Both the position numbers and the translations under genes were made by a program. A stretch of DNA of 32,958 nucleotides from Candidatus Cybelea tumulisoli (GTDB lineage: Bacteria; Vulcanimicrobiota; Vulcanimicrobiia; Vulcanimicrobiales; Vulcanimicrobiaceae): assembly GCA_003167155.1 (NCBI GenBank), contig PMTY01000023.1, positions 4,065 through 37,022 on the forward strand, written 5' to 3'. Below the pieces are notes generated by a model. It was given only the letters and a program-made list of their open reading frames with translations, ran no database searches and was not told where the DNA came from. Positions 4,790 through 28,369 of this stretch are shown in pieces. Position 1 is the stretch's first letter; each line of letters starts with the position of its first letter.

Positions 4790-6244
4790 TTACCACAAGC
4801 ACCACTTCACGCGCGCGGTGTAAGTCAGCGTCGAGCGGCCTCCCGCCGGCGCCGAAACATTCCATGTTGCCGAGGAGGCCGACGATTTTGTGTGCGGCAT
4901 GTTCTCGTCGAGGATCTGCCAGTCGCCGGGGATCGGCTCGACGACGAGAACGTTTTGCGCCACCGTTTTTGCATTCGCTAGGACGATCTTATAGGAGCTG
5001 TCGGCCCCGCAGCCAACGAGGTGGAAATCGGTCTGTACTTTGCGCGCCGTGACGTCGAACGAATCGCCCACGTGCAGCCGCACCGTTTCATTTTTCGGCG
5101 TGTGGTCGATCGAGTCTGAGCCGAGGAACTGCGACAGCCCGTGAGAGTCGTTCTTGTACAGGCGCACGATGCCGCCAGGCAGCGGGATCCCTAGCTCGCC
5201 GCCGCGGTTCTCAAACGAAACGTAGGCGCCGACAGGCAAACGATCGCCAATATCGGGCTCGGCGTTTCGGTAGTAGTCCGGCGAGCCCCGAAGCTCGAGC
5301 GTCTCCCGAATCGGCACGTTTTGCGCGGTCAGCAAGGTCAGCTGCTTCGTTTCATTGTCGAGGATCGTTGTCGGGCGCGCGAGCGTGTACAAGTGATACT
5401 CGTAGTAGTTCTCCTGCGAAACGTAAAGGTCACTGCCTACGCCGGATTTGACCATCGCCGAATACGCGTTGTTCAACTGCGGCTGCGCCACGTTGACGTT
5501 GCCGGCGACGAGCTGCAGGCGCGCGTTCTCATACGGCTCGCCGCTCGTGTTCGAGAGCGTCACAAGGCCAGTGAGCCCGAGGCGCGAGCCGTCGGCGGAG
5601 ACGACGCCGACATAGTCGGCACGCCAGGTCATTCCGCTGGTCAGGTAGCTCAAATCCAGGGTCTGGGATTGCGCGTGCTCGCTCTCGACCTGTAATACCA
5701 AGGTCGGGCGCTCGCGAAAGGCGCCGCCGGAATCGGGGAAGACGATGTGACCGCGCACGCCCGTCTCGATGCCGTCTTTATACTTCAGCGCGATGCCGCC
5801 GTTTACACTGAGAATCTCCGCCGTTTCGCGCGTGTCGCGGTCGCCGGCAAAGCGTGCCTCGTGGACGACGGTCACCTCCCGGCCGATGTACTTTAGCAGC
5901 AGCGTCTGGGGATCGAGAAGATCATAATCGAAGTTCTGCTCGCGCACGCCGATGAGATTCGTGCCGCCGACGGGTTCCAGAATCGCCGAGGTGGCATCCA
6001 TCCGGGCGCTGACGTCGCGCCACGCGATCCGGTTAAGCCCTTCTTCCAGCGGGACGACACGCCGGTCGTGAATCAGCGCCGCCCCTCCGTTATAGACCGT
6101 GACGTTAAGCGAGACGCGTTGCCCGACGGTGCTCGTCCGCTCGGGCGGGTCGGCGGCGATCCGAATGGGGGCAATTGCGAGTAACGCGATAACAAGTAGT
6201 CCGGTGCATATCATCTGACAGCTCGCGCGCTTATGGTGTCTCAT
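4790..6244 (-). CDS. DUF4139-domain secreted protein, copy 1
   Basis: A 484-aa exported protein. Signal peptide in MRHHKRASCQMICTGLLVIALLAIAPIRIAA; ATG 6244 is chosen because the earlier part of the frame runs into the neighbouring paralog, and ATG 6214 is an alternative. The mature protein opens with the VSLNVTVYNGGAALIHDRR strand and carries the DUF4139 region (LDLSYLTSGMTWRADYVGVV, LTLLTAQNVPI, GGELGIPLPGGIVRLYK, LHVGDSFDVTA). DUF4139 proteins are beta-rich and presumed envelope-associated; the biochemical function is unknown. It starts only 11 nt after the stop of copy 2 and is near-identical over most of its length, so it is a tandem duplicate, presumably co-transcribed. Two cysteines near the end (VGCGAD, KWCLW) are matched in copy 2. 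Confidence 0.85.
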   Translation of the reverse strand: MRHHKRASCQMICTGLLVIALLAIAPIRIAADPPERTSTVGQRVSLNVTVYNGGAALIHDRRVVPLEEGLNRIAWRDVSARMDATSAILEPVGGTNLIGVREQNFDYDLLDPQTLLLKYIGREVTVVHEARFAGDRDTRETAEILSVNGGIALKYKDGIETGVRGHIVFPDSGGAFRERPTLVLQVESEHAQSQTLDLSYLTSGMTWRADYVGVVSADGSRLGLTGLVTLSNTSGEPYENARLQLVAGNVNVAQPQLNNAYSAMVKSGVGSDLYVSQENYYEYHLYTLARPTTILDNETKQLTLLTAQNVPIRETLELRGSPDYYRNAEPDIGDRLPVGAYVSFENRGGELGIPLPGGIVRLYKNDSHGLSQFLGSDSIDHTPKNETVRLHVGDSFDVTARKVQTDFHLVGCGADSSYKIVLANAKTVAQNVLVVEPIPGDWQILDENMPHTKSSASSATWNVSAPAGGRSTLTYTARVKWCLW

Positions 6245-6255
6245 CAGTCGCGTGC

Positions 6256-7695
6256 TCAAAAGCCGCACCAGCTCACGCGCGCCGTGTAGGTCAGCGTCGT
6301 GCGCCCGCCCGCCGGAACGCGCAGGTTCCAGCTGGCGGTCGAGGCCGAGGATTTCGTATGCGGAAAGTTCTCCTGGGGAATGCTCCAGTCGGAGGGAATC
6401 GGTTCGACGACCAGCACGTTTTGCGAGGCCGTCTTCGCATTGGCCAGCACGATGCGGTAGGAGCTCTCGCTGTCGCACGGATTCAGCAGCCGGAAATCGG
6501 TCTGTATTTTACGCGCCGTAACGTCGAACGAATCGCCCACGTGCAGACGCACGGTTTCGTTCTTCGGCGTGTGATCGATCGAATCCGAGCCTAGGAACTG
6601 CGAAACACCGTGCGAGTCGTTCTTATACAGGCGCACAATGCCGCCGGGCAGCGGAATGCCAAGCTCGCCGCCACGGTTCTCAAAGGAGACGTAGGCGCCC
6701 ACGGGCAGGCGATCGCCGATATCCGGCTCGGCGTTTCGGTAGTAGTCCGGCGAGCCGCGCAGCTCGAGCGTCTCGTGAATCGGGACGTTTTGCGCGGTCA
6801 GCAAGGTTAGCTGCTTCGTCTCGTTGTCGAGAATCGTTGTCGGGCGCGCGAGCGTATACAAGTGATACTCGTAGTAGTTTTCTTGTTGAACTGGGGCGGC
6901 TTGGGCTGCATAGGCTTGCGAGGTGACTCGCGCGATCGTTCGAAGCATGCCTTGGGCCTGCACGACGTTGACGTTGCCGGCGACGAGCTGCAGGCGCGCG
7001 TTCTCATACGACTCGCCGCTCGTGTTCGAAAGCGTGACGAGACCGGTGAGGCCGAGTCGCGAGCCGTCGGAGGAGACGACGCCGACATAATCCGCGCTCC
7101 ACGTCATTCCGCTGGTAAGATAGCTCAAGTCAAGGGTTTCGGATAGCGCGTGCTCGCTCTCCACTTGCAATACCAACGTCGGGCGCTCGCGAAAGGCGCC
7201 TCCGGAATCGGGGAAGACGATGTGACCGCGCACGCCGGTCTCGATGCCGTCCTTATACTTCAGCACGATGCCGCCGTTTACGCTGAGGATCTCCGCCGTT
7301 TCGCGGGTATCGCGCTCGCCGGCAAAGCGTGCCTCGTGGACGACGGTTACCTCCCGTCCGACGTACTTTCGCAACAGCGCGTCGGGATCCAAGAGATCGT
7401 AATCGAAGTTTTGCTCGCGCACGCCGATGAGATTACTGCCGCCGACGGCTTCCAGAATCGCCGAGGTCGCGTCCATTTGTGCGCTGACGTCGCGCCACGC
7501 GATCCGGTTGAGACCCTCTTCCAACGGAACGACGCGCCGGTCGTGAATTAGCGCCGCTCCACCGTTATAGACGGTGACGTTGAGCGACACGCGTTCCCCT
7601 ATGGTGCTGGCGCGCTCCGCCGGATCGGCGCCCGGGCGCAGCGGCGCAACGAGCGCGGCAAAAATTAGCGAGACGAGTAAGATTCGTATCGGCAT
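6256..7695 (-). CDS. DUF4139-domain secreted protein, copy 2
   Basis: A 479-aa exported paralog of the next gene downstream. ATG 7695 has a strong ribosome-binding site (AAGGAG, 7706-7701). Signal peptide MPIRILLVSLIFAALVAPLRPGA. The DUF4139 region is the same as in copy 1. The two differ mainly in three places: the leader, a loop of about 30 residues just before QENYYEYHLYTLARP (here Ala/Gln-rich, AQGMLRTIARVTSQAYAAQ; in copy 1 NNAYSAMVKSGVGSDLYVS), and the last 60 residues. It lies 70 nt downstream of aroE in the same orientation. Function is unknown; an envelope role is inferred from export and beta-rich content. Confidence 0.86.
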   Translation of the reverse strand: MPIRILLVSLIFAALVAPLRPGADPAERASTIGERVSLNVTVYNGGAALIHDRRVVPLEEGLNRIAWRDVSAQMDATSAILEAVGGSNLIGVREQNFDYDLLDPDALLRKYVGREVTVVHEARFAGERDTRETAEILSVNGGIVLKYKDGIETGVRGHIVFPDSGGAFRERPTLVLQVESEHALSETLDLSYLTSGMTWSADYVGVVSSDGSRLGLTGLVTLSNTSGESYENARLQLVAGNVNVVQAQGMLRTIARVTSQAYAAQAAPVQQENYYEYHLYTLARPTTILDNETKQLTLLTAQNVPIHETLELRGSPDYYRNAEPDIGDRLPVGAYVSFENRGGELGIPLPGGIVRLYKNDSHGVSQFLGSDSIDHTPKNETVRLHVGDSFDVTARKIQTDFRLLNPCDSESSYRIVLANAKTASQNVLVVEPIPSDWSIPQENFPHTKSSASTASWNLRVPAGGRTTLTYTARVSWCGF

Positions 7696-9230: not shown

Positions 9231-12200
9231 ATGAAGTTTTCGCGCACCTATTCCGCCCCTGAAAACCCCTACTCGGGCATCGTTTTCGAGCCGCGGACCT
9301 CGCGCATCGTCAACCCCGACGGGTCGGTGATTTTCGAGGCACAGGACGTCATGGTTCCCTCCTCCTGGAGTCAGGTCGCCCTCGACGTGCTCGCGCAAAA
9401 GTACTGTCGCAAAGCCGGCGTTCCCAGGTGCACGATTAAAGTGGCCGAGGAGGGTGTGCCGGAGTGGCTCCAGCGCTCGATTGCCGACGGCGCCGCCCTC
9501 GAGGCGCTGCCCCGCGACGAGCAGTTCGGTCCCGAGCGCGATGCGCGCGAGGTCTTCAATCGCATGGCGGGGTGCTGGACGTATTACGGCTGGAAGTACG
9601 GCTACTTCGATTCGGAAGCCGACGCGCAAGTTTATCACGACGAAATGTGCGCGATGCTGGCGCGCCAAGTCGGCGCGCCGAACTCACCGCAGTGGTTCAA
9701 CACCGGTTTGCATTGGGCGTACGGCATTTCCGGCCCCGCGCAAGGGCACTGGTACGTCGATCCCTCCGACGAAACGGCGCGCACCTCGGCCGACACCTTT
9801 TCGCACCCCCAGGTCAGCGCTTGTTACATCCTCGGAGTGGAGGACGACCTCGTCAACGAGGGCGGCATCTTCGACGGCGTCCTGCGAGAGGCGCGCATCT
9901 TCAAAGGCGGCTCGGGTAGCGGAGCCAACTTTTCAAAGCTTCGTTCCGCGGGAGAGAAACTGACCGGCGGCGGCACGTCGAGCGGCTTGATGTCGTTTCT
10001 GCGGGTCTTCGATCGCGCGGCCGGCGCGATCAAATCGGGCGGCACGACGCGCCGTGCCGCCAAGATGGTCGTCCTTAACGCGGACCACCCCGATATCGAA
10101 GAGTTCGTGAATTGGAAGGTCCGCGAAGAGCGCAAGGTCGCGGATTTAGTCATCGGCTCGCGCATTTTCGAAAAGCAGCTCAACGCCATCATTTCGGCCG
10201 CTCACGATACCCGCGTTCCCGACGCCGCGCGTCTGGATCCCGCCCTGAATGCAGCGCTGCGCATTGCGATTCGCGACTCGATCGATGCGGGCGTTCCGCC
10301 CGGTGCGGCACAGAGCGCGCTGGATTATGCGCGTCAAGGCTATACGCGTCTGGAGATCGAGCAGTACGACACCGCTTGGGACTCCGAAGCGTATATCACG
10401 GTCTCCGGACAGAACTCGAACAACTCCGTGCGGCTGACCAACGGGTTCTTCAACGCGCTCGACCGCGACGAGGATTGGCTGCTGACCGCGCGCACGACCG
10501 GCGACGTCGTCAAACGCATCAAGGCGCGAGACCTTTGGGAGCAGATTGCCGTCGCGGCATGGCAGTGCGCCGATCCCGGCTTACAATTCGACGACACAAT
10601 TCAAGAGTGGCACACCTGTTCGAACGACGACCGCATCAATGCGACGAACCCCTGCGTCACAGGCGATACGCTGATCGCCACCGCGGATGGTCCGATGCGA
10701 ATTGGCGAACTCGTCGGCAAAGCGGTCTTCGTAATCGGCGGCGACGGCAAGTCGCATCTCGTCAATAATATCTTTCCAACCGGCAACAAAAGCATTTACC
10801 GCTTGCAGACCGCCGGAGGCTACGAGGTCGACCTCACCGCCGACCATCAGGTGTGGACGGAAAACCGCGGCGACGTTGCGGCCCGCGAGCTGCGCCCCGG
10901 CGATCGCCTCGCCCTGAACGGCTCGGGTTTCGGCAACGTTTCGCTCGACGAGCGCTTGGCTTTTGCCGTAGGATCGGCGGTGGGTGAGGGCGACGAGATC
11001 GAGGCCGCGGTTCTCGGCGACATCACCGCCGGAATCAACGCCGCTAAGGTAGTCTCGCCTATGCAGGTTCACTCGATGTCGCGGGTTACGATGCATCGTA
11101 CGAGCGCAATTCACGGGACGACCGGAGGCCGCCCGATCGTCGAGTTCTGCTCTTACTATGCCTCGATCGAGGAAGGCAAAGCGCGCAAGATCTTCACCGA
11201 TGCCGTGTACGATCTCGATTGCCCGACGACCGCCGCGCTGCTGCGCGGTCTGTACACGGCCGACGCGACCGTTTGCGAAGATGGCGTCGGCGCGGTCTCG
11301 ATCGACCTCAAATCGGCATCGTCGCCATTCTTGAAGCAAGTGCAGTACATGCTCCTCTCGTTTGGCATTCGCTCCGATCTTTGCGCCGATGGTCTACTTC
11401 GAATTCCCGGGCAGTTTCTGGGCACGTTCGAACGGTCGGTTGGGTTTCATCAGTCCTCGGTCAAAGCGACTGCCTTGGCTCTGGTCGCCGGCAGCGATGC
11501 GCCGGCCTCCGAAACGTTGAGCGACGAGTTCTTCTCGTTGGAGCCGCTCGGCCAAGCGGACGTCTTCGATTTGACCGAATCCGAAACGCAGCACTTTGTC
11601 GCAAACGGTTTGCGGGTACACAATTGCTCCGAGTATGTTTTCATCGATGATACGGCGTGCTTTGCGCCTGAGACGCGAATCAGTACACCCGACGGGCTCA
11701 GAACTGTCGAAGAGCTTTTCGAGCGGCAAGAGTCGGGACAACGCGTCCTCATTACAACCGACATTCATTCGGAAGTGGACCATCGCAGGCTAAGCGCCCA
11801 CCGCCCGGCCTATATAACGAAGGTCGGCGAGCGAGAGGTCTTCCGCATGACGCTGGCCGACGGGCGCGAGATCCGTACCACCGGCGACCACAAACTCCTT
11901 ACCGCTGAGAACGGTTGGAAGCGGATCGACGAACTCAAACTGGGTCTGGATCGCATTGCCATTCGCGAGATGGGCAACTCGGTAACGTTTGCTTCCGATG
12001 CGGCCGACGTCAAGCGTTGGCAGATGCTCGGATGGCTCACGGGCGACGGCGTCTTCAATAAGGATACGGTCGCGCTCGTCTTCGGTCCGCGCGAGCGGCG
12101 CACCGCGGAGTTCATGACCGCGCAACTCAACGACCTTAAAGCAACGGCAGTCAACCTCTCCGGGCCGCCAATTGATGTCCGTATGAGTCAGATCTCCGTG

Positions 12201-15200
12201 CAGAGCAACGGCGTCATGCAGACCAGCGCATCGCAGACCTCGCTTGTCTCGTATCTCGAAACGCGCTACGGCTTCAAACAAGCGACGGCCCTGCATAAGG
12301 ACGTACCCAGCGCTATTCACCGGGCGCCAGAGGATCTCAAGGTCGCCTACCTGCAGGGGCTCTTTTCGGCCGACGGCTGCATTCGCGCAAATGGCGCGGC
12401 GGCGGAAAAAGAAGTGATGCTGGCCTCTTCTTCTGCCGCGTTGCTTCGGTCCGTGCAGCTCCTCTTGAGCGATCTCGGGATCACCTCACGCATTTCGTGG
12501 TCAGATCCCCAGGGGCACAAGACTCCGCAAGGCCAGCTGCACCTCTATAACCAGCAGTCGCGGAAGTTCAACTCCTTGATCGGCTTCCCGTGTTCGGCGG
12601 AAAAGGAGCTCAAAGCGCGGGACCTGTTGGCCAGTGAGTTCACCGCTCACCACAAGAACCCGCGCTCGCCGAAGGTCCTGTCGATCGTTCCCGACGGCAC
12701 AACGACCGTCTATGATGTGACCGAACCGGTCACGCATTCGGTGATCGCCGAGGGCATGATTGCGCACAACTGCAATCTCGCCAGCCTCAATCTGGTCAAA
12801 TTCCTCAACAACGACGGCAACTTCGATGCGCAACGCTTTGCTCACGCAGCTCGAGTCTGGACGACGACGCTCGAGATCTCGGTCACGATGGGCCAGATGC
12901 CGTCGAGGCGCATCGCGGAAAAGAATCACGGCTACCGGACGCTGGGGTTGGGATATGCGAATCTCGGCACGCTGCTGATGCGTTTAGGTTTGCCCTACGA
13001 TTCTGAGGAAGGTTTTGGGTGGTGCGCCGCGATCACGTCGCTGATGACCGGCGCCGCATACCGGACATCCGCCGAAATGGCGCAGCATCTCGGTGCATTC
13101 GCGCGCTTCGAAGCCAACCGCGAGCCGATGCTGCGCGTAATTCGCAATCATCGCAGCGCCGCGTACGCCGCGGATCCCGGAACGTACGAAGCTCTCTCGG
13201 TTACGCCGGTGACCCATGCGCCGACGCTCTTCACCCAAGCCACGTGGGCACTGGCGCGCAAGATGTGGGACGATGCGATTTCTATCGGGGAAGTTGCCGG
13301 CTTCCGCAACGCTCAGACGGTCGTCATTGCCCCGACCGGATGCCTTACCGGCACCGCATTAATTTCGACCGATCGCGGCCTCACGCGTTTGCAGCGCTTG
13401 GGCAACGTGGAGGGACGGCAATGGCAAGACATCGACGTTCGGGTCCTCACCGACGACGGCGAGCAGCGCGCGAACCAGTTCTACATTAATGGCGTCTCGC
13501 CGACGAGGCGCATCAAGACCAACAGCGGCTATACCATTACCGGAACGCCGGAGCATCGAGTAAAGGTCGTCGACCGCGGGTCGGGCGAGTTGATCTGGAA
13601 GCGCTTTGCCGAAGTGGGGGCGGGCGACACCGTCGCGCTTTCGATGGGCGGCTTCGCCGGCAGTCCGCACGACGTCAACCTGCCGCCACTGGGTGAAGAG
13701 CACTGGACCGCCGATTTTACGACCACCGTTCCTAGTTCGATGACCGCCGATCTCGCCGAGCTCGTCGGCTACTCGATGGGCGGCGGCACGCTGTACGCGA
13801 AGGGCTTGCGTTTGCGCGTCGCCGACGAAGATGGCGACGTCCGCGATCGACTGATCGCTTTGGCGCGACAACTCTTCAACATCGAGGCCACGACTTCGCA
13901 GAAGGGCGCTTATACCGAAATCGCGATTCATTCGGTTCCGCTTGCAATCTGGTGGCAAGCCTGCGGCTTCGCCAAACACCATCCGGCAAGCGACTCCCGC
14001 GGCAAGAGCTACGTCGCTCACGTTCCCGACGTGATTCTGGCTTCGAACGATCCGATCGTCTACGGTGCGTTCTTGCGCGGGCTCTTTGAGGCCGACGGCA
14101 CCGTCGTCAACGGCGCCGTCCACCTTTCGACGGCGAACGCGAGCCTGGCCGACGACGTGCGAACGGTACTTCTCACGCTCGGCATTCCGACCAATACGCG
14201 CATCGACAAATCCGGCTGGAGCGGCGCCGATCTCTACGTGTTACGAGTTCGCAACGCGGATTACGCGCGCACCTTCCTTAAACGGGTCGGGTTTATCGGC
14301 GATCGCAAGTCTAGCGCCGTTCGGCCGTGCGACACCTGGCAGGGAACCAAAGGCGACCGCGTCTTCGTGCGAAAAGACATTCTGCGCACGCTGGTTCCGC
14401 ATTCGAGCGAGCTCTATCCGCGCACCGCGCTCTACGGTTATCGTCATGCAGGTGCGATCAGCCGCACGGCCGCGTGCGAGCTGCTCGAGAAGACCGGCAG
14501 CCTCGAGATAAAAACCGCGCTGACGTTTTTTTACGACGACGTAGCCGCCAACGAAGACGGCGGCGAGCAGTTCACCTACGATCTCTCCGTTCCGGCCAAC
14601 GTCACGTATTTCGCCAACGGCTTCATCTCGCACAACACCATCGGCCTGGTCATGGACTGCGATACGACCGGTATCGAGCCGGACTTTGCGCTGGTCAAGT
14701 TCAAGAAACTCGCCGGCGGCGGCTACTTCAAGATCGTCAACCAGTCCGTCGATGCCGCCCTGCATAAGCTCGGCTACTCGCAAGACCAGATCGACGCGAT
14801 CGAGACGTACGCCAAGGGCACGGGCACGCTGGAGGAATCGCCGCACGTCAACCGCGCGACGCTGCGGGCCAAGGGTTTCGACGATGAAGCGATCGCGCGC
14901 ATCGAGGCGGTACTTCCGGGCGCCTTCGAGCTGCCGTTCGTCTTCAATAAGTTCGTGCTCGGCGAAGAGTTCTGCAAACAACGCCTCGGCTTAACTGAAG
15001 CGCAGCTCAATGACTGGAGCTTTTCGCTGCTACGCGACGGTCTTGGATTCTCCACGCAGCAAATCGAGGAAGCCTCGGCGCATATCTGCGGCCGAATGAC
15101 CGTCGAGGGTGCGCCGTATCTCAACGACGAGCATCTGCCGGTTTTCGACTGCGCCACGCCGTGCGGCAAATACGGTTCCCGCTACATCCGCCCGCTTGCA

Positions 15201-17558
15201 CACGTCGACATGATGGCCGCCGCGCAACCATTTGTCAGTGGCGCAATCAGTAAGTGCGTGGTCGGAGAGACGCTTCTCACGACCGAACACGGCCTCGTTC
15301 GCATCGAGTCTCTCCATCGGGGAGAGGCCGCGGATTCGTTTAGAACGCAGGCCACCGAGGTGGCGTCTCTCAACGGGCGACGCACGACGGACGCTTTCTA
15401 TTACGGCGGCGAACGAGCTGTGCGCGAAGTCAAGCTCCGTTCAGGTCACCGAGTGATCGGGACTCCCAATCACCGTGTCCTTGTCTGTGGGGATACTGGC
15501 CTGGCCTGGCGCCACCTATCCGAAATTCAGCCCGGTGAGTACGTAGCGACGCAATATGGCGACGACATGTGGTCGCAAGACGCTGCTACCTTCAGCGATT
15601 TTAGGCCATCGTCGCCTTACGGCTATCAAAAGGCGTTCGAAACACCGCAACAAATGACTTCGGATCTCGCGTTCTTTCTGGGAGCATACGCTGCAGAAGG
15701 CCATACGTCACGGTCTGACTACACGGTCACAATAACCAACTCCGTAGAAGTAGTACTGCAACGGGTGCTCGACGCCGCCCGGTCGGCTTTCGGACTCGAA
15801 GGCAAGCTCTTGCGATCCGCGGACCGCTGTGCAAGCGTTGTCTTTGCATCAAAGACCCTCGTAGAGTTCCTCGAGTACCTCAAGTGTGGTTCACGCGCTA
15901 GCCAGAAGCGCATTCCCAACTCGGTGCTTGGGTCGAGGCGCGAGCACGTGCTTGCATTCCTCAGCGGCCTCTTCCTCGATGCGTACGTGACGACCGAGGG
16001 GCTGGCAAAATGGGCGATCTGTCTCGATTCCGCGTCGCTGCTCGACGATCTCCAAGCCGTGCTAACCAATCTTGGCGTCGTCCACAGCCGGATAGAAAAA
16101 CTTAACAAGGAGTACGGAAAGACGTACGGAGAGGTCTACGCCGCGGGGCGCCAGGCGCAGAAGTTGTTAAGCTTGGTAGCGTTCCCCGAGCCTGCAAAGC
16201 TGGCGCGTGCCTGGACTATTCTGACCGACCGATTCTCCCAAAGCACGGCTGACGTTATACCAGGCGTTACCGGGCGGGAGCTCTACGAGCTCATTCCGCG
16301 AGTGACTGAACGGTCCGCGCCCCGGAGTCCCGTCATCCGTGGAACGCACGGGTACCTTTTGGATCCTCGAACGCGCCACGTCTCCTGGGAGACTGCTTCC
16401 AAGTTACGCGACCATATTGAACTGCCGGTCTGGCTCGACGATGTCATAAACCGTAACCTGCATTTCAGCCCGGTAGAGTCCGTCAAGGACGCCGGAACGG
16501 CAAAGGTCTACGATCTGTCCGTGCCAGTCACGCACGCATTCGTCGGCAACGGCATAGTCAATCACAATACGATCAACTTTCCGCAGACTGCGACGATCGA
16601 GGATGTCAAGGAAGCCTACCGCTACTCGCACGCGCGCATGATCAAGGCGGTTGCGCTCTATCGCGACGGCTCGAAGCTCTCGCAGCCGCTGGCGACGAGT
16701 TACGACTTCGGCAACGACGGCAACGAAGCGGAAGCGACCGGCTCGCAGCCGCAACCCTTTGCGACGCCGATGCAGATCGCCGAGAAGATCGTCTATCGGT
16801 ACATCGCCAAACGCCGGCCGATGCCCCAGCGCCGCAGCGGCTACACGCAGAAGGCGACGATCGCCGGCCATAAGGTCTATCTGCGCACGGGTGAATACGA
16901 AGGCGGCCAGCTCGGCGAGATCTTCCTCGACATGCATAAGGAGGGCGCGGCCTTCCGCTCGATGATGAACAACTTCGCGATTGCGATCTCGCTGGGCTTG
17001 CAGCACGGCGTGCCGCTAGAAGAGTTCGTCGAAGCCTTCACCTTCACGCGCTTCGAACCCAACGGGCCCGTCGTCGGTCACGACCATATCAAGATGGCGA
17101 CCTCGATTCTCGATTACATCTTCCGGGAGCTCGCCGTCAGCTATCTCGGTCGCTACGATCTCGCACACGTGGAACCGTCTATGCAAATGGATGCGATGGG
17201 GCCTGAAGCGCGCGAGGACTACGTCGCCGAGGAAGAGGGTGGGGTCAACGTTCGGCCGGTGGGCGTCGCAGAGATGTTCCATCCGGTAAGCACGCATCTC
17301 CACCCCGGCCAACAACCCAGGCCGGCCGCGCCTGTCCGGCAAGCCGCACCAACGACTACTTCTGGCAGCACCGTTCCTTCCGGTAGCACCGGCGGGGGCG
17401 CGGCCGTCGCCGTCATGGTGAGAACCGAAGCGATCAACGCCTCGAAAGCCAAGGGCTATACCGGCAACGCATGCTCCGAGTGCGGCCAGCTCACGATGGT
17501 CCGCAACGGCGCGTGCGAAAAATGCGATTCCTGCGGATCAACGTCAGGCTGCAGCTAA
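9231..17558 (+). CDS. nrdJ: adenosylcobalamin-dependent (class II) ribonucleoside reductase with four inteins
   Basis: Precursor of 2775 aa. Four inteins (1565 aa in total) interrupt a class II ribonucleotide reductase of 1210 aa, the usual length for the large B12-dependent NrdJ. It reduces ribonucleotides to deoxyribonucleotides using a cobalamin-generated thiyl radical. Extein pieces are residues 1-474, 799-809, 1181-1370, 1803-2008 and 2447-2775. Recognisable sites: redox Cys198 (VSACYILG); NP-CSEY containing the thiyl-radical Cys and catalytic Glu; [12 protein letters not shown] with the second redox Cys; the APTG-TIGL loop; SGAISK-TIN. A TSCPD-type domain (about 2510-2620) follows, then a Cys-rich tail (CSECGQ...[13 protein letters not shown]) that probably re-reduces the active site. 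ATG 9231 has GAGGAG upstream. All junctions stay in frame with no internal stop, so splicing rather than gene decay is expected. Confidence 0.95.
10653..11624 (+). other. intein 1 of NrdJ (324 aa)
   Basis: Precursor residues 475-798, inserted between Pro and Cys of the extein motif NP/CSEY. Splicing residues are intact: Cys1 ([13 protein letters not shown]), block B TADH (intein residues 62-65), block [17 protein letters not shown], penultimate His and terminal Asn, and +1 Cys. That +1 Cys is the residue equivalent to the thiyl-radical Cys439 of E. coli NrdA. Homing-endonuclease motifs are weak: the first DOD block reads AVGSAVGEG (Glu for the usual Asp) and the second [11 protein letters not shown] keeps its Asp. 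The nuclease half is compact, so it may be decaying while splicing is kept (inference). Confidence 0.93.
11658..12770 (+). other. intein 2 of NrdJ (371 aa)
   Basis: Precursor residues 810-1180, inserted in [12 protein letters not shown] only 11 extein residues after intein 1. Cys1 ([13 protein letters not shown]), block B TGDH (intein residues 75-78), block [19 protein letters not shown], and His-Asn before +1 Cys are all present. The +1 Cys corresponds to redox-active Cys462 of E. coli NrdA. Both LAGLIDADG blocks look intact: [11 protein letters not shown] (about 123-133) and [12 protein letters not shown] (about 231-242), each with its catalytic Asp. Of the four inteins this one is the best candidate for a working homing endonuclease. 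Confidence 0.93.
13341..14636 (+). other. intein 3 of NrdJ (432 aa)
   Basis: Precursor residues 1371-1802, inserted in the loop [18 protein letters not shown], a site I recall as used by other ribonucleotide reductase inteins. Cys1 ([13 protein letters not shown]), block B TPEH (intein residues 69-72) and His-Asn followed by +1 Thr are present. Block F reads [16 protein letters not shown], with Tyr where the other copies have His. The first DOD block is [11 protein letters not shown] (about 141-151), with Gly replacing the catalytic Asp; the second, [12 protein letters not shown] (from about 244), is intact. One active-site acid is therefore missing and nuclease activity is doubtful. Confidence 0.92.
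15255..16568 (+). other. intein 4 of NrdJ (438 aa)
   Basis: Precursor residues 2009-2446, inserted in [19 protein letters not shown]. Splicing residues: Cys1 ([13 protein letters not shown]), block B TPNH (intein residues 70-73), block [19 protein letters not shown], then His-Asn and +1 Thr. First DOD block [10 protein letters not shown] (from about 140) has Glu, which is tolerated in many inteins. The second, [11 protein letters not shown] (from about 235), lacks the Asp at the catalytic position. The wording of this stretch is less GC-biased than the flanking extein, which hints at later arrival (by eye only; not measured). Confidence 0.92.
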
Positions 17559-22537: not shown

Positions 22538-24751
22538 ATGATAGTCCGGGACACGCAGACACGACAGATCATAACGTGGGTCGTCTTCGCCGCTATCTCG
22601 GGATCCAACATTGGAACTGCGCCGGCCTCCGCGCAAGGCGCTGCCCCTAGCACAACGGGCGCGATCGCCAATGCCTATGTCGCATTAGCCGAAGCTTACC
22701 AACGGGCGGATAAAGCGGCGCTTTTTAACCTGCTGCTCCCCGAGTTCGAATTCACGTACACGACGGGGGCCCGCGAGAACCTTGCGCAATACATCGCCGA
22801 TTGGAACGAGACGATAGAGAACTTACCCGGGCTGCACGTTAGTATACAGGTTGAGAGGCTTAACGTTAGCGGTAACGCCGCCGATGCAGTAGTTCTGCTC
22901 ACGCAGCGTTATACGCGCTCAAAGCACGGCGCACTCGACGTCCAGCGCGAAGATGATCGTTGGAGTCTGCGCAACGGCAGCTGGGTTTTAACGACGGGGC
23001 GCACGATGAGTGATACCTTTTACCTGGACGGCAATGTCGCGAGCACCGACGCACCCGTGGCGCCGCTGACGGCCTCGCAGCGCAGCGCAGTGACGGCTCA
23101 ACTCAAAGAAGTCGCGTGGCCGATTCATACGGCCGTCCCGGGAGGAAGTTTGCAGGATCTCGCGCCCCTCGAGGGCGCCATCGGAGCGTCTCGTATAGTC
23201 GCGATGGGCGAGGCAACGCACGGCACCAGTGAGTTTTTCTCGCTGAAGGATCGTATCTTCAGGCTGCTGGCCACGAAGATGGGTTTCACCGTGCTCGCGA
23301 TGGAGACGCCATGGGTCGGCGGACTCGCAATCGACAAATACGTCACGACCGGACAAGGCGACGCACCCGCGGCATTAGCGGGCACGTTTGCCGTGTGGGA
23401 CAACCAGGAAGTGCTCGATCTTATCGAGTGGATGCGCGCCTATAACCTGACTCGAGGCAATCGGCCGCCGTTGCGCTTTGTGGGAATCGATATGCAAGAC
23501 GACCCCGTTGCGCTAAGTGGAGTCATTCTGCGCTTTGTGAAAGCCGCGCGCCCGGCCGACGTGTCGCTCGTCTCCACTCAACTTGCATGCCTACGAGCGC
23601 GCGGTGGACCAACGCCAGATTGTGTCGGCTCGATCGCGCAGGTCGAAAGCACGGTGACCAATGAAGCGCGAGGCACTACGCTGTCGCGCGATGAGATTTT
23701 GCAGGCGGAGCACGCCGTCACCGTGGCCCGCGAACAGGCGCAAATGGAGAGTGAGCCCGAACTTATCGACCAAGTCAACTCACGCGATCGCGCGATGGCC
23801 TACAACCTCGAGTGGTTCGCAACGACGGCGTTCCCGGGCGCGCGAATCGCCGTTTGGGCGCACGACGGTCACATTATGACATCGAATAGCAACGGGATGG
23901 TTCCAATGGGAACGTATCTGCGCAAACGCTATGGTGCGAACTATTACGTCATCGGCTTCGGATTCGATCGTGGCAGCGTCAGTCCCAATGGCATGGCCGC
24001 AGTGGTAACGGTTCCGCCGGCGCCTCCCTACGCGGTCGAGTCAGTCTTGCGTTCGACCGGCCAACCGTTGTTTGGACTCAATCTCAGGCAGATGCCCGCC
24101 GGCACCCCGCTTGGGGCTCTGCTATCGAGCGAGCAGCCGATGCGAACTCTCGGCGCCTTCACGAGTGCCAAGGATCTCGTCGACTCGCAGACTTTTGGCA
24201 ACGTGCGCCTGATAGACTCGTTCGACAGCCTGATATTCGTGGACGAAATGCATGCGGCGCACTCATTTGAACTGCAACACGCGCCGGTGGTGCGGCCACT
24301 CACGGTACCGGCCGCCTCCGGAGGCGTCACGTGGGCGACGAAGTGGCTCTTTGCCAGTTCGGATCCGAGCAGCTATCGGGCCGGCGGAGATGCGCCCTCG
24401 GCGAGCTATCCGTCGGGGCTGCTGTGGTTGTCGTCGGTTTCCAACATCGGATCCGGTTACACGGTCGGGACGATTCCCGTGGCAACGCACCGCGGCAAGC
24501 GCCTTCGCTTAACCGGCGTGCTTGAGGCGGCCGGTGTCGACAAGGGCGCCGAAGCGTGGATGGTCGTCTCCGGGCCGAACGGAAAGCTTGAATCGTTCGA
24601 CTACATGCTGGACCGCTCGCTGCAAGGGACGACGGATTGGACGCCATTTACCATCGCTCTCGACGTGCCGAAGGACGCTCGCGCCATCCGGTTCGGGCTC
24701 TTGTTGCGCGGGCGGGGGCGGCTGTGGGCAACGAATCTCGAGGTGCAATAA
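22538..24751 (+). CDS. exported erythromycin-esterase-family protein with N-terminal SnoaL/NTF2-like domain
   Basis: 737 aa. N-terminal export signal (hydrophobic stretch [21 protein letters not shown]). About residues 40-150 resemble an NTF2/SnoaL-like domain ([32 protein letters not shown]). About 165-560 are the erythromycin-esterase fold: [21 protein letters not shown] (Glu225, His228), [33 protein letters not shown] and WAHDGHI (His442, His445). The C-terminal 170 residues are a beta-sandwich ([14 protein letters not shown]...[23 protein letters not shown]). EreA/EreB hydrolyse the macrolide lactone; most relatives have unknown substrates, so resistance cannot be assumed. ATG 22538 has GGAGGA upstream. 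The stop overlaps the next start by 1 nt. Confidence 0.86.
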
Positions 24752-26242: not shown

Positions 26243-26374
26243 ATGACGCTTTATTCTCCAGCGGGCCACCATGTAGGCTTGGATGTCGTTGACGACGTGC
26301 TGCGGCGCACTCGTCAACGTCAGCGCGCGCGCGCGCGAAGATCAAGTCCGAAATGCCGCTGCGCATTTTTTTGA
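26243..26374 (+). CDS. short upstream ORF overlapping the hipA start (doubtful)
   Basis: A 43-codon ORF (MTLYSPAGHHVGLDVVDDVL...) begins just after the putative promoter, runs through the GC dinucleotide tract at 26323-26337 and ends inside the hipA 5' end. It has no ribosome-binding site and no helix-turn-helix, so it is not a HipB antitoxin. Removing one GC unit from the tract would join it in frame to hipA. It may be a leader peptide, a lost N-terminus or chance. Confidence 0.25.
   Translation: MTLYSPAGHHVGLDVVDDVLRRTRQRQRARARRSSPKCRCAFF
26323..26337. repeat. (GC)7 dinucleotide tract upstream of hipA
   Basis: Seven GC repeats plus one G, 16-30 nt before the hipA ATG. Alternating GC tracts can slip during replication. 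Contraction by one unit would put the upstream 43-codon ORF in frame with hipA. Confidence 0.6.
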
Positions 26375-27624
26375 GCTTCGGGCCACACCAATTCGTAAGC
26401 GTCGGACGCCTTGCCCTCGACCGTAGCGTGGCCTTGCTGGAATACGATTCGGACTTTATCGCATCGGGCTTATCGCTCAATCCCTGTCTCGCGCCGCCGG
26501 CAAAGGGTCTGGTCGAGCCAAAATCGCCGCGCGACTTTGATGGACTTCCAGGATTCATTGGCGACAGTCTGCCGGATGCATGGGGACAGCTGCTCATGCA
26601 GCGGCGTGCCGAGGCCGCCGGCATCGGCTATTCTTCCTTGACGCCGCTCGATAAGCTCGCGGTCATTGGCTCGCGCGCCATGGGCGCGCTCACGTACGAA
26701 CCTGAAATCGCGAGCGACCACACGGAGGGGCTCGATTTGGAACGAGTCGCAGCGGAGTCGCTTGAGTTGCTGGAAGGCCGCGATATCGCCATGCTCCCGG
26801 CGCTCGAACGCTTGGGCGGATCGTCGGGCGGCGCCCGCCCCAAAGCGCTGATAGCATTGAATCAGAGCACGAATGCCATTGCGGACGGTGCGGGGCCCAT
26901 CCCTGACGGATTCGAGGCGTGGCTGGTCAAGTTTCGCTGCTCGCGCAACGATCTCGAAGATAGTGGACCGCTGGAGGCCGCGTACGCCGACATGGCGCGT
27001 GACGCGGGACCCAACGTTGCGCCAACGCGTCTTTTTCCCGGGCCGGTGTACGGATACTTTGGCACACAGCGATTCGATCGCCTTGCCGGTAACGGGTGTC
27101 TCCATATGCTCTCGGCGGCGGCCATGCTGGACGTGGACTGGGAGAGCGGCGGATTGGATTACGACCACTTGATGAGGCTGGGCCGTTATGTCCTCCAACG
27201 CCGCGATGGCGCGCAGCGTATTTTCGCGCGGATGGCCTTCAACGTGGTGGCCAACAACCGCGACGATCATGCAAAACAGCATGCATTTCTGATGAACGAA
27301 GAAGGCGTTTGGGATCTAGCGCCGAGTTTCGATTTGACGTTCGCCAGGGGACGCGGTGGCGAGCACTACCTGGCAGTCAAAGGGCGGACGGGCGATGACA
27401 TCACGACGGAGCTCATGATAGAACTGGGACGCGAGCACGGCATTGACGCCGCTCAATGCCGCTCCATCATCGAGCGCACAATCGATGCGGTCAATCGTTT
27501 TGAAGAGTTCACGCGCCCATACCCGATGAGTACCTCCACCCGTCAGGATATCAATCGCGAGCTGCAATCGAATATCGTTCGCCTCGCCGGTCCTTCGACA
27601 CGCTCGATCACCGTTCAAGGGTAG
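26353..27624 (+). CDS. HipA-family serine/threonine kinase toxin, solitary
   Basis: 423 aa. HipA kinases phosphorylate cytoplasmic targets (glutamyl-tRNA synthetase for E. coli HipA) and arrest growth. N-terminal HipA domain: VGRLALDRSVALLEYDSDFIASGLSLNP, GLPGFIGDSLPDAWG, LAVIGSRAMGALTYEP. Kinase domain: P-loop-like LGGSSGGARPKALI, RFDR, catalytic loop NVVANNRDDHAKQH (Asp304, His306) and metal-binding APSFDLTF. The family loop is N-x-D-x-H-x-K-N; here the last Asn, a metal ligand in E. coli HipA, is Gln. ATG 26353 has no clear ribosome-binding site. No HipB-type helix-turn-helix gene lies on either side, so the antitoxin is absent, distant or of another type. Confidence 0.88.
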   Translation: MPLRIFLSFGPHQFVSVGRLALDRSVALLEYDSDFIASGLSLNPCLAPPAKGLVEPKSPRDFDGLPGFIGDSLPDAWGQLLMQRRAEAAGIGYSSLTPLDKLAVIGSRAMGALTYEPEIASDHTEGLDLERVAAESLELLEGRDIAMLPALERLGGSSGGARPKALIALNQSTNAIADGAGPIPDGFEAWLVKFRCSRNDLEDSGPLEAAYADMARDAGPNVAPTRLFPGPVYGYFGTQRFDRLAGNGCLHMLSAAAMLDVDWESGGLDYDHLMRLGRYVLQRRDGAQRIFARMAFNVVANNRDDHAKQHAFLMNEEGVWDLAPSFDLTFARGRGGEHYLAVKGRTGDDITTELMIELGREHGIDAAQCRSIIERTIDAVNRFEEFTRPYPMSTSTRQDINRELQSNIVRLAGPSTRSITVQG

Positions 27625-27634
27625 TGTGTAATCC

Positions 27635-27663
27635 TTGACAAAACCTAGGCCTAGGTTTAGATT
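27635..27663 (+). promoter_or_regulatory. promoter with 18-bp perfect palindrome, for the DUF4160/DUF2442 pair
   Basis: TTGACA (27635-27640, perfect -35) and TAGATT (27658-27663, -10) are separated by 17 bp. The palindrome AAACCTAGGCCTAGGTTT (27641-27658) fills the spacer and touches both boxes, an ideal operator position for autoregulation. The expected transcription start (about 27670) is within two bases of the GTG start codon, so the mRNA is probably leaderless. Confidence 0.75.
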
Positions 27664-27671
27664 GATCCTTT

Positions 27672-27932
27672 GTGGGCAGCAAGCGGATTGGTCAGGTCCG
27701 GTTTAGGGTGATCTCTGGAGACCACGCGGGTAGCGCGGTTCCGCACGTTCATGCAGATATAGGCAGCGGAGAGGTCGTCGTTGAGTTAGTCGCTGGAGGC
27801 GTTCGGCTGTCAGGGGCCCGCTCCGATCCTATTCGCGGTAGGGTGACTAAGAATGATCTCCGGATCGTTCTTCGCACCGCGCGCGATTCGTATCAACAAC
27901 TGCTCGAGCTCTGGAAGGAGAGCCAACCATGA
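27672..27932 (+). CDS. DUF4160-domain protein (putative toxin-antitoxin-like pair, first gene)
   Basis: 86 aa, cytoplasmic. It matches the DUF4160 pattern: an N-terminal strand (VRFRVISGDH), the invariant PHVHADIG motif, strands EVVVELVAGGVRL, then C-terminal helices (DLRIVLRTARDSYQQLLELWKE). DUF4160 genes are commonly found next to DUF2442 genes, as here, and the pair has been suggested to be toxin-antitoxin-like; biochemical activity is not established to my knowledge. The start is GTG 27672 with no ribosome-binding site, consistent with the leaderless transcript predicted from the promoter. The stop overlaps the next start as ATGA. Confidence 0.78.
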   Translation: MGSKRIGQVRFRVISGDHAGSAVPHVHADIGSGEVVVELVAGGVRLSGARSDPIRGRVTKNDLRIVLRTARDSYQQLLELWKESQP

Positions 27933-28369
27933 AGTCACGCAAGAAACAGAAGACGAGAATCCTCACGACCCAAGCCGAAATGGGGAAGGCCGTTGCTGCC
28001 GCTCGTCGCCGGGAGAAGGGGGCGACGAAGATCCGCCATGCTCGCTACGATGTGAGGCGCGACGCTATCATAGCTGAGCTGTCGACGGGATCGATTATAG
28101 CGGTGCCTCGCCGGATTATCCCCGGATTTGCGGGAACGCGACAGGCGGTACTTGCCGATCTTGAGATAACTCCGGGCAACGAGGGTCTCTGGTCGGACAG
28201 CGCCGACGACGGCGTTCTTCTGGAGCAGTTGGTTGTTCTGGCTGCTGGGGAGAGAACTGTCGGAGCGATTGGCGCTCGGATCAACGCTTCGAAGAAATCA
28301 GCAGCACGCGCTGCGGCATCCAGAGCTAACGGCGCAAAAGGCGGTCGTCCCCGGAAAAGCGCAGCGTGA
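27929..28369 (+). CDS. DUF2442-domain protein (putative toxin-antitoxin-like pair, second gene)
   Basis: 146 aa. A basic N-terminal tail (MKSRKKQKTRILTTQAEMGKAVAAARRREKG) precedes the DUF2442 core: ARYDVRRDAIIAELSTGSIIAVPRRIIPGFAG, then LADLEITPGNEGLWSDSADDGVLLEQLVVLAAG. The C-terminus ends in the Ala-rich, positively charged sequence SRANGAKGGRPRKSAA, common in long DUF2442 proteins and likely to touch nucleic acid. It may be the autoregulator binding the palindrome upstream of the pair (inference). ATG 27929 overlaps the DUF4160 stop and has AAGGAG upstream. Confidence 0.8.
   Translation: MKSRKKQKTRILTTQAEMGKAVAAARRREKGATKIRHARYDVRRDAIIAELSTGSIIAVPRRIIPGFAGTRQAVLADLEITPGNEGLWSDSADDGVLLEQLVVLAAGERTVGAIGARINASKKSAARAAASRANGAKGGRPRKSAA

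Follow-up and report, generated by a model that had tools for sequence, protein, structure and literature searches.

The window, a 32,958-nucleotide stretch of DNA from Candidatus Cybelea tumulisoli, encodes a DUF4160/DUF2442-type gene pair that we interpret from sequence, at a probability of roughly 0.78, as an autorepressed type II toxin-antitoxin module with the toxin gene first, in which the tailed DUF2442-type protein would block RNA polymerase and weak, leaderless translation of the toxin would keep the antitoxin in excess. A promoter with an operator in its spacer, two overlapping genes, a strong ribosome binding site for the second gene only, and the conservation of operator and layout can all be read in the DNA. 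The resemblance to a toxin-antitoxin operon proposed in the initial annotation is supported by the putatively self-repressed layout and by the recurrence of the palindrome at orthologous pairs. While toxin-antitoxin systems of this kind are known, the variant found here, which carries a DNA site of its own, seems to form a branch not yet described.

Promoter, putative operator and genomic neighborhood

A promoter scan ranked the site formed by a -35 hexamer TTGACA (27635-27640, plus strand) and a -10 hexamer TAGATT (27658-27663, plus strand) first in the region, with 10/12 matches. The 17-bp spacer is filled by a perfect 18-bp palindrome, AAACCTAGGCCTAGGTTT (27641-27658, no strand assigned), the final T of which is also the first base of the -10 hexamer and which we regard as a putative operator. 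The GTG start codon of the toxin gene (27672-27674) is placed 8 nt past the end of the -10 hexamer, and the two genes overlap by ATGA (27929-27932, plus strand); hexamers, palindromic spacer, GTG start and overlap had all been described in the initial annotation and are exact in the sequence. Its placement of the GTG about two bases from the transcript end likewise agrees with a predicted transcript start at 27670, 2 bases upstream of the GTG, which is computed from the -10 position and assumes initiation 7 bases after it. As genomes do give rise to palindromes this long, the one found here could be a product of chance without function. However, the 18-mer is single in the window at up to 3 mismatches and single in its own 3.7-Mb genome even at up to 3 mismatches, no such site was obtained in 100 shuffles, and the conservation described below refutes a chance origin, to which we assign next to no probability.

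A HipA-like gene (26353-27624; HipA_C, 131.7 bits; Couple_hipA, 36.7 bits) ends 10 bp before the -35 hexamer. A functional link between this gene and the pair was considered and dropped, as a hipA-like gene adjoins no other module copy in the fetched loci. The window also contains an unusually intein-rich reading frame of 2775 aa for a class II ribonucleotide reductase (9231-17558) with four Intein_splicing and three LAGLIDADG_3 stretches, an Erythromycin-esterase family protein (22538-24751; 205.5 bits), and two adjacent minus-strand frames (4790-6478 and 6256-7695) encoding long, nearly repeated proteins, which by eye represent a tandem duplication.

Predicted toxin and antitoxin proteins

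The first gene (27672-27932, plus strand) encodes an 86-aa protein (P0001), the predicted toxin, which matches the DUF4160 profile (PF13711) with 24.6 bits and thus lies above the Pfam gathering cut-off of 23; PF13711 is also matched at E <= 0.01 by 50/50 aligned toxin relatives. P0001 is not a member of the NCBIfam DhiT equivalog family NF048015 (toxin_DhiT), scoring 15.1 bits against a curated cut-off of 100, and weak matches to this model (E <= 0.01) were found in 42 of the 50 aligned relatives, the best at 3.7e-12. An AlphaFold2 model of P0001 (pLDDT 91.9) consists of five strands and two helices. A fold search of the PDB with this model returned no chain at E <= 0.001, and the best Z of a second fold comparison (5.6) lies inside the range counted as uninformative; hence, no toxin mechanism is claimed and the fold is not called new. 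PADLOC assigned no family to the three proteins examined.

The second gene (27929-28369, plus strand) encodes a 146-aa protein (P0002), predicted from its relatives and its fold to be both antitoxin and repressor. With 12.9 bits, P0002 falls below the Pfam gathering cut-off of DUF2442 (PF10387; 23.9 bits) and is the sole exception among 44 aligned members, 43 of which match DUF2442 at E <= 0.01. A sequence search identified the structure 3k8r at E 0.0057, and the structural model of P0002 matched the same entry in Foldseek (E 1.8e-5, rmsd 1.4 over 71 columns), identifying a DUF2442-like fold, as well as 2auw, a putative DNA-binding protein (E 0.036); both structures are presumably DUF2442 entries. 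As its closest aligned relatives match DUF2442, P0002 is treated here as a diverged relative of this family. The label given in the initial annotation therefore holds by way of relatives and fold, but not as formal Pfam membership.

P0002 ends in a C-terminal tail, SAARAAASRANGAKGGRPRK (28298-28357, plus strand), in which a helix runs into an AT-hook-like GGRPRK motif and which is the predicted DNA-binding part of the protein. The core of the model is confident, while the last third, a long helix followed by the unstructured GGRPRK end, is uncertain, with a pLDDT of 54-59 per block in the tail. Because of this low confidence, a DNA-binding role of the tail is argued from its conservation. The pattern NGxxGGRP occurs in 139/144 homologous antitoxin ORFs, a count that is biased upward for the loci fetched by the GTDB scan (L001-L080), where the tail peptide RANGAKGG was among the search patterns and invariance is consequently not evidence; all five misses belong to the set fetched without this pattern.

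Conservation of the operator

Homologs of P0002 were collected as 80 loci from named genomes and as 61 matches in 27 of 98 genomes related to that of the window. A DUF4160 frame is located just upstream of 111/144 antitoxin-type ORFs in the fetched loci; some loci, the window locus among them, entered this count more than once. Removal of two copies of the window locus and of five pairs with weak toxin matches left 104 pairs, and removal of a further 39 with toxins more than 80% identical left 65 non-redundant pairs, among them the window's own locus (L081). The DNA preceding the toxin starts shares the inverted repeat AACCYAA-N(2-7)-TTRGGTT, which was found at a score of at least 12 of 14 within the 70 bases before the toxin start in 56/65 pairs, compared to 4/2264 windows of the same loci and 7/1300 dinucleotide shuffles. 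Both subsets behave alike, with the operator present at 29/34 loci from named genomes and 27/31 from the relatives' genomes. The search for the palindrome upstream of orthologous pairs suggested in the initial annotation was thus positive, and the absence at such loci that would have spoken against its reading did not occur.

The consensus was chosen by eye from the scored loci, and the only check made after it had been fixed is a set of 12 plasmid loci, all of which (12/12) score at least 11 and 10/12 at least 12; this set and the controls offer some protection against circularity, but neither is phylogenetically independent. These loci are found on small mobilisable as well as on conjugative plasmids. 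A plasmid search with P0001 as query yielded no match, and one with the toxin of a relative yielded 87 records, 12 of which were read. On a Roseinatronobacter plasmid (L213), a type ISP restriction/modification gene immediately precedes the pair. The operator is missing in 9/65 pairs, some of which have truncated toxins or misplaced starts, and since start codons were chosen by their position relative to the domain, some of the misses are explained by this procedure. The spacing between the half-sites ranges from 2 to 7, a variation that a rigid dimer would not predict. Furthermore, TTG[ACT] is found just before the operator at 40/57 operator-bearing non-redundant loci vs. 99/1140 control draws.

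According to the record titles, the module is hosted by alpha-, beta- and gammaproteobacteria, Gemmatimonadetes, a Pyrinomonadaceae MAG and a Viridilinea MAG, and further by MAGs labelled as Actinomycetota and as a cyanobacterium, although single MAG assignments may represent contamination. This distribution bears on the possibility that the palindrome is bound by a different regulator, encoded by the host, which has the pair as only one of its targets. The operator is indeed placed where that of any repressor usually is, but no host regulator would follow the family motif through different phyla and onto plasmids. In addition, the window palindrome at up to 2 mismatches has only four sites in the 98 related genomes (exact in G000, the window's own genome, G040 and G058; two mismatches in G047), each of them upstream of this module. 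Moreover, the loose family motif occurs at six sites in G000, three at three intact modules and three inside unrelated reading frames, which are taken as chance occurrences. We therefore consider a host regulator improbable and favor a repressor encoded by the module itself. The two additional intact modules in G000 (G000:C22:8498-9157 and G000:C156:17578-18229) have different operators, which makes cross-talk among the antitoxins testable. The openly licensed literature on the family names and on AT-hook antitoxins with operators yielded no description of an AACCYAA operator or an NGxxGGRP tail.

Translation signals

The two genes of the tailed branch differ in their translation signals. Shine-Dalgarno matches of at least 4 precede 3/56 toxins vs. 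44/56 antitoxins, with 46/336 in coding windows, when scored against AAGGAGG only, since the AGGT of the operator itself would otherwise count. In the window, the antitoxin has a Shine-Dalgarno sequence AAGGAG (27915-27920, plus strand; longest core match 6) that lies within the toxin gene, 8 nt upstream of the antitoxin ATG. The median distance from the end of the -10 hexamer to the toxin start codon is 5 nt across tailed-branch loci, and the toxin is accordingly predicted to be leaderless. Three predicted leaderless toxin-antitoxin loci have been described in Synechocystis, none of which is named as DUF4160/DUF2442 in the accessible part of that report (PMC4963859).

Alternatively, another promoter or read-through from the hipA-like gene could supply the toxin message with a leader. 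The 10-bp distance between this gene and the -35 hexamer would make read-through possible, and GTG is a weak start codon. However, the short spacing from the -10 hexamer to the start holds throughout the tailed branch, the hipA-like neighbor is peculiar to this locus among those fetched, and the tailed-branch toxins generally lack the Shine-Dalgarno sequence that is found in 13/21 DhiT-type toxins. A leader is thus unlikely, although it is the alternative to which we give the most weight, and a leaderless toxin message remains the preferred reading.

Toxin loss and antitoxin-only loci

At 15/32 loci without a detected toxin, an operator with a score of at least 12 is located within 200 nt of the antitoxin domain, a space too short for a whole toxin; in some of these, a short toxin remnant is fused in front of the antitoxin. 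The retention of the operator where the toxin is gone indicates that this site is associated with the antitoxin. In four Rhizobiales loci (L039, L047, L056 and L060) lacking the toxin, the antitoxin begins at the place expected for the toxin, a few bases behind the kept operator. Among the relatives, 26/58 intact antitoxins lack an intact toxin (18 have none, 8 a broken one), compared to 0/32 assessable intact toxins without an antitoxin; the other two of the 34 toxins are located at contig ends. This asymmetry (Fisher 1.1e-6, or 5.1e-5 if the two contig-end toxins are counted as orphans) is what one would expect if harm came from the product of the first gene. The antitoxin-only count and the contrast would, however, be inflated by any diverged toxins that the profile of so short a protein may overlook.

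The same observation argues against the view that the DUF4160 protein is no toxin but the harmless companion of a regulator that represses its own operon. Two DUF4160 proteins were negative in E. coli, namely the toxin of the Thermus thermophilus plasmid-borne Persistence Enhancing Module (PEM), which had no effect there (PMC12724237), and a PF13711 protein tried as an injected toxin (PMC11297309). Yet, in the accessible parts of the respective reports, toxic behavior is described both for DhiT of Dickeya dadantii 3937 and for the Thermus protein: DhiT inhibits growth while DhiTA does not (PMC8198452), and a Thermus plasmid lacking the second gene of PEM could not be introduced (PMC12724237). 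Together with antitoxin-only loci being common and toxin-only loci not being seen, this leaves a harmless partner a small probability, and we retain the toxin-antitoxin interpretation.

Proposed mechanism and implications

In the proposed mechanism, a dimer of the DUF2442-type protein, probably with the toxin as co-repressor, would read the two AACCYAA half-sites via its basic C-terminal tail. The bound repressor would cover the stretch between the -35 and -10 hexamers and keep RNA polymerase off, so that a plentiful antitoxin, alone or with the toxin, would close the promoter, and a falling antitoxin level would open it. Transcription would begin at the start codon of the toxin or no more than a few bases away from it, giving a leaderless and poorly initiated toxin message, and the antitoxin would be made in greater amount from its AAGGAG site. 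The combination of a weak leaderless toxin start with a Shine-Dalgarno sequence for the antitoxin would place the antitoxin in excess even though it is encoded second. Upon loss of the antitoxin, the DUF4160 protein would stop growth, which may favor retention of the module or its replicon.

More tentatively, and with somewhat less than even odds, we propose that the tailed DUF2442 branch is a portable self-repression cassette, in which a minimal tail of a short helix and GGRPRK would read AACCYAA half-sites at spacings of 2-7 in a host of any phylum, and that leaderlessness is obligatory for the toxins of this branch and functions as a built-in dosage device. If so, antitoxins in genomes with multiple copies, such as G000 with its three intact modules, could repress one another's operons, and antitoxins that have lost the toxin but retain the operator would serve as resident antidotes against incoming modules. 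A little-studied kind of toxin-antitoxin system thereby gains a concrete candidate operator ready for gel shift and a candidate DNA-binding tail small enough for a synthetic peptide. Furthermore, the proposed arrangement offers a clean, testable answer to the question of how an operon that encodes the toxin first can maintain an excess of antidote, and the operator consensus provides a means of detecting and classifying such modules, toxin-less ones included, in genomes and small plasmids.

Comparison with known systems

The toxin-antitoxin reading of the window pair has direct precedent in the published DhiTA and PEM systems. The initial annotation regarded the role of DUF4160/DUF2442 as not established, which does not hold for the pair as such, as pairs have been tested in Dickeya (PMC8198452) and Thermus (PMC12724237), but still applies to the biochemical target of the toxin within the accessible, openly licensed literature. 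As described in the accessible part of the Thermus report, PEM consists, like the window pair, of a DUF4160 gene (87 aa) followed by a DUF2442 gene and raises plasmid persistence (PMC12724237); by this description, which mentions no operator, its antitoxin has 92 aa compared to 146 aa in the window pair.

Similar logic is found in other families, as far as the consulted portions of the reports describe them. Aca10 and similar anti-CRISPR autorepressors are second-gene repressors acting on a promoter-overlapping palindrome, but Aca10 is a helix-turn-helix protein with another operator and is no relative of the window tail (PMC9410881). Likewise, the BrnTA-like Aave_1720/1719 of Acidovorax citrulli is a toxin-first, overlapping type II pair, but belongs to other families, and no promoter binding was found there (PMC10714953).

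DhiTA of Dickeya dadantii 3937 is likewise close to the window pair. In the accessible part of its description, it combines the same DUF4160 and DUF2442 domains in co-transcribed, overlapping genes with the toxin first (PMC8198452), and the window pair shares this layout of a toxin-first bicistron with a small overlap, here ATGA. DhiA lowers the activity of its own promoter by about half and the DhiTA complex lowers it further (PMC8198452); the autorepression reported there is the one proposed for the window pair. DhiT-type loci, which were retrieved using the DhiT model from a class of genomes (48 of 274) and from the Viridilinea genome and its relatives, differ from the window branch in lacking the AACCYAA operator (0/22; the Dickeya locus itself was compared by description), and their antitoxins are short and, unlike that of the window, devoid of the NGxxGGRP tail (0/21), in addition to the difference in toxin Shine-Dalgarno sequences described above. 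Tail, operator and predicted leaderless toxin thus occur together and, judged from these sequence comparisons, mark a branch apart from the DhiT type.
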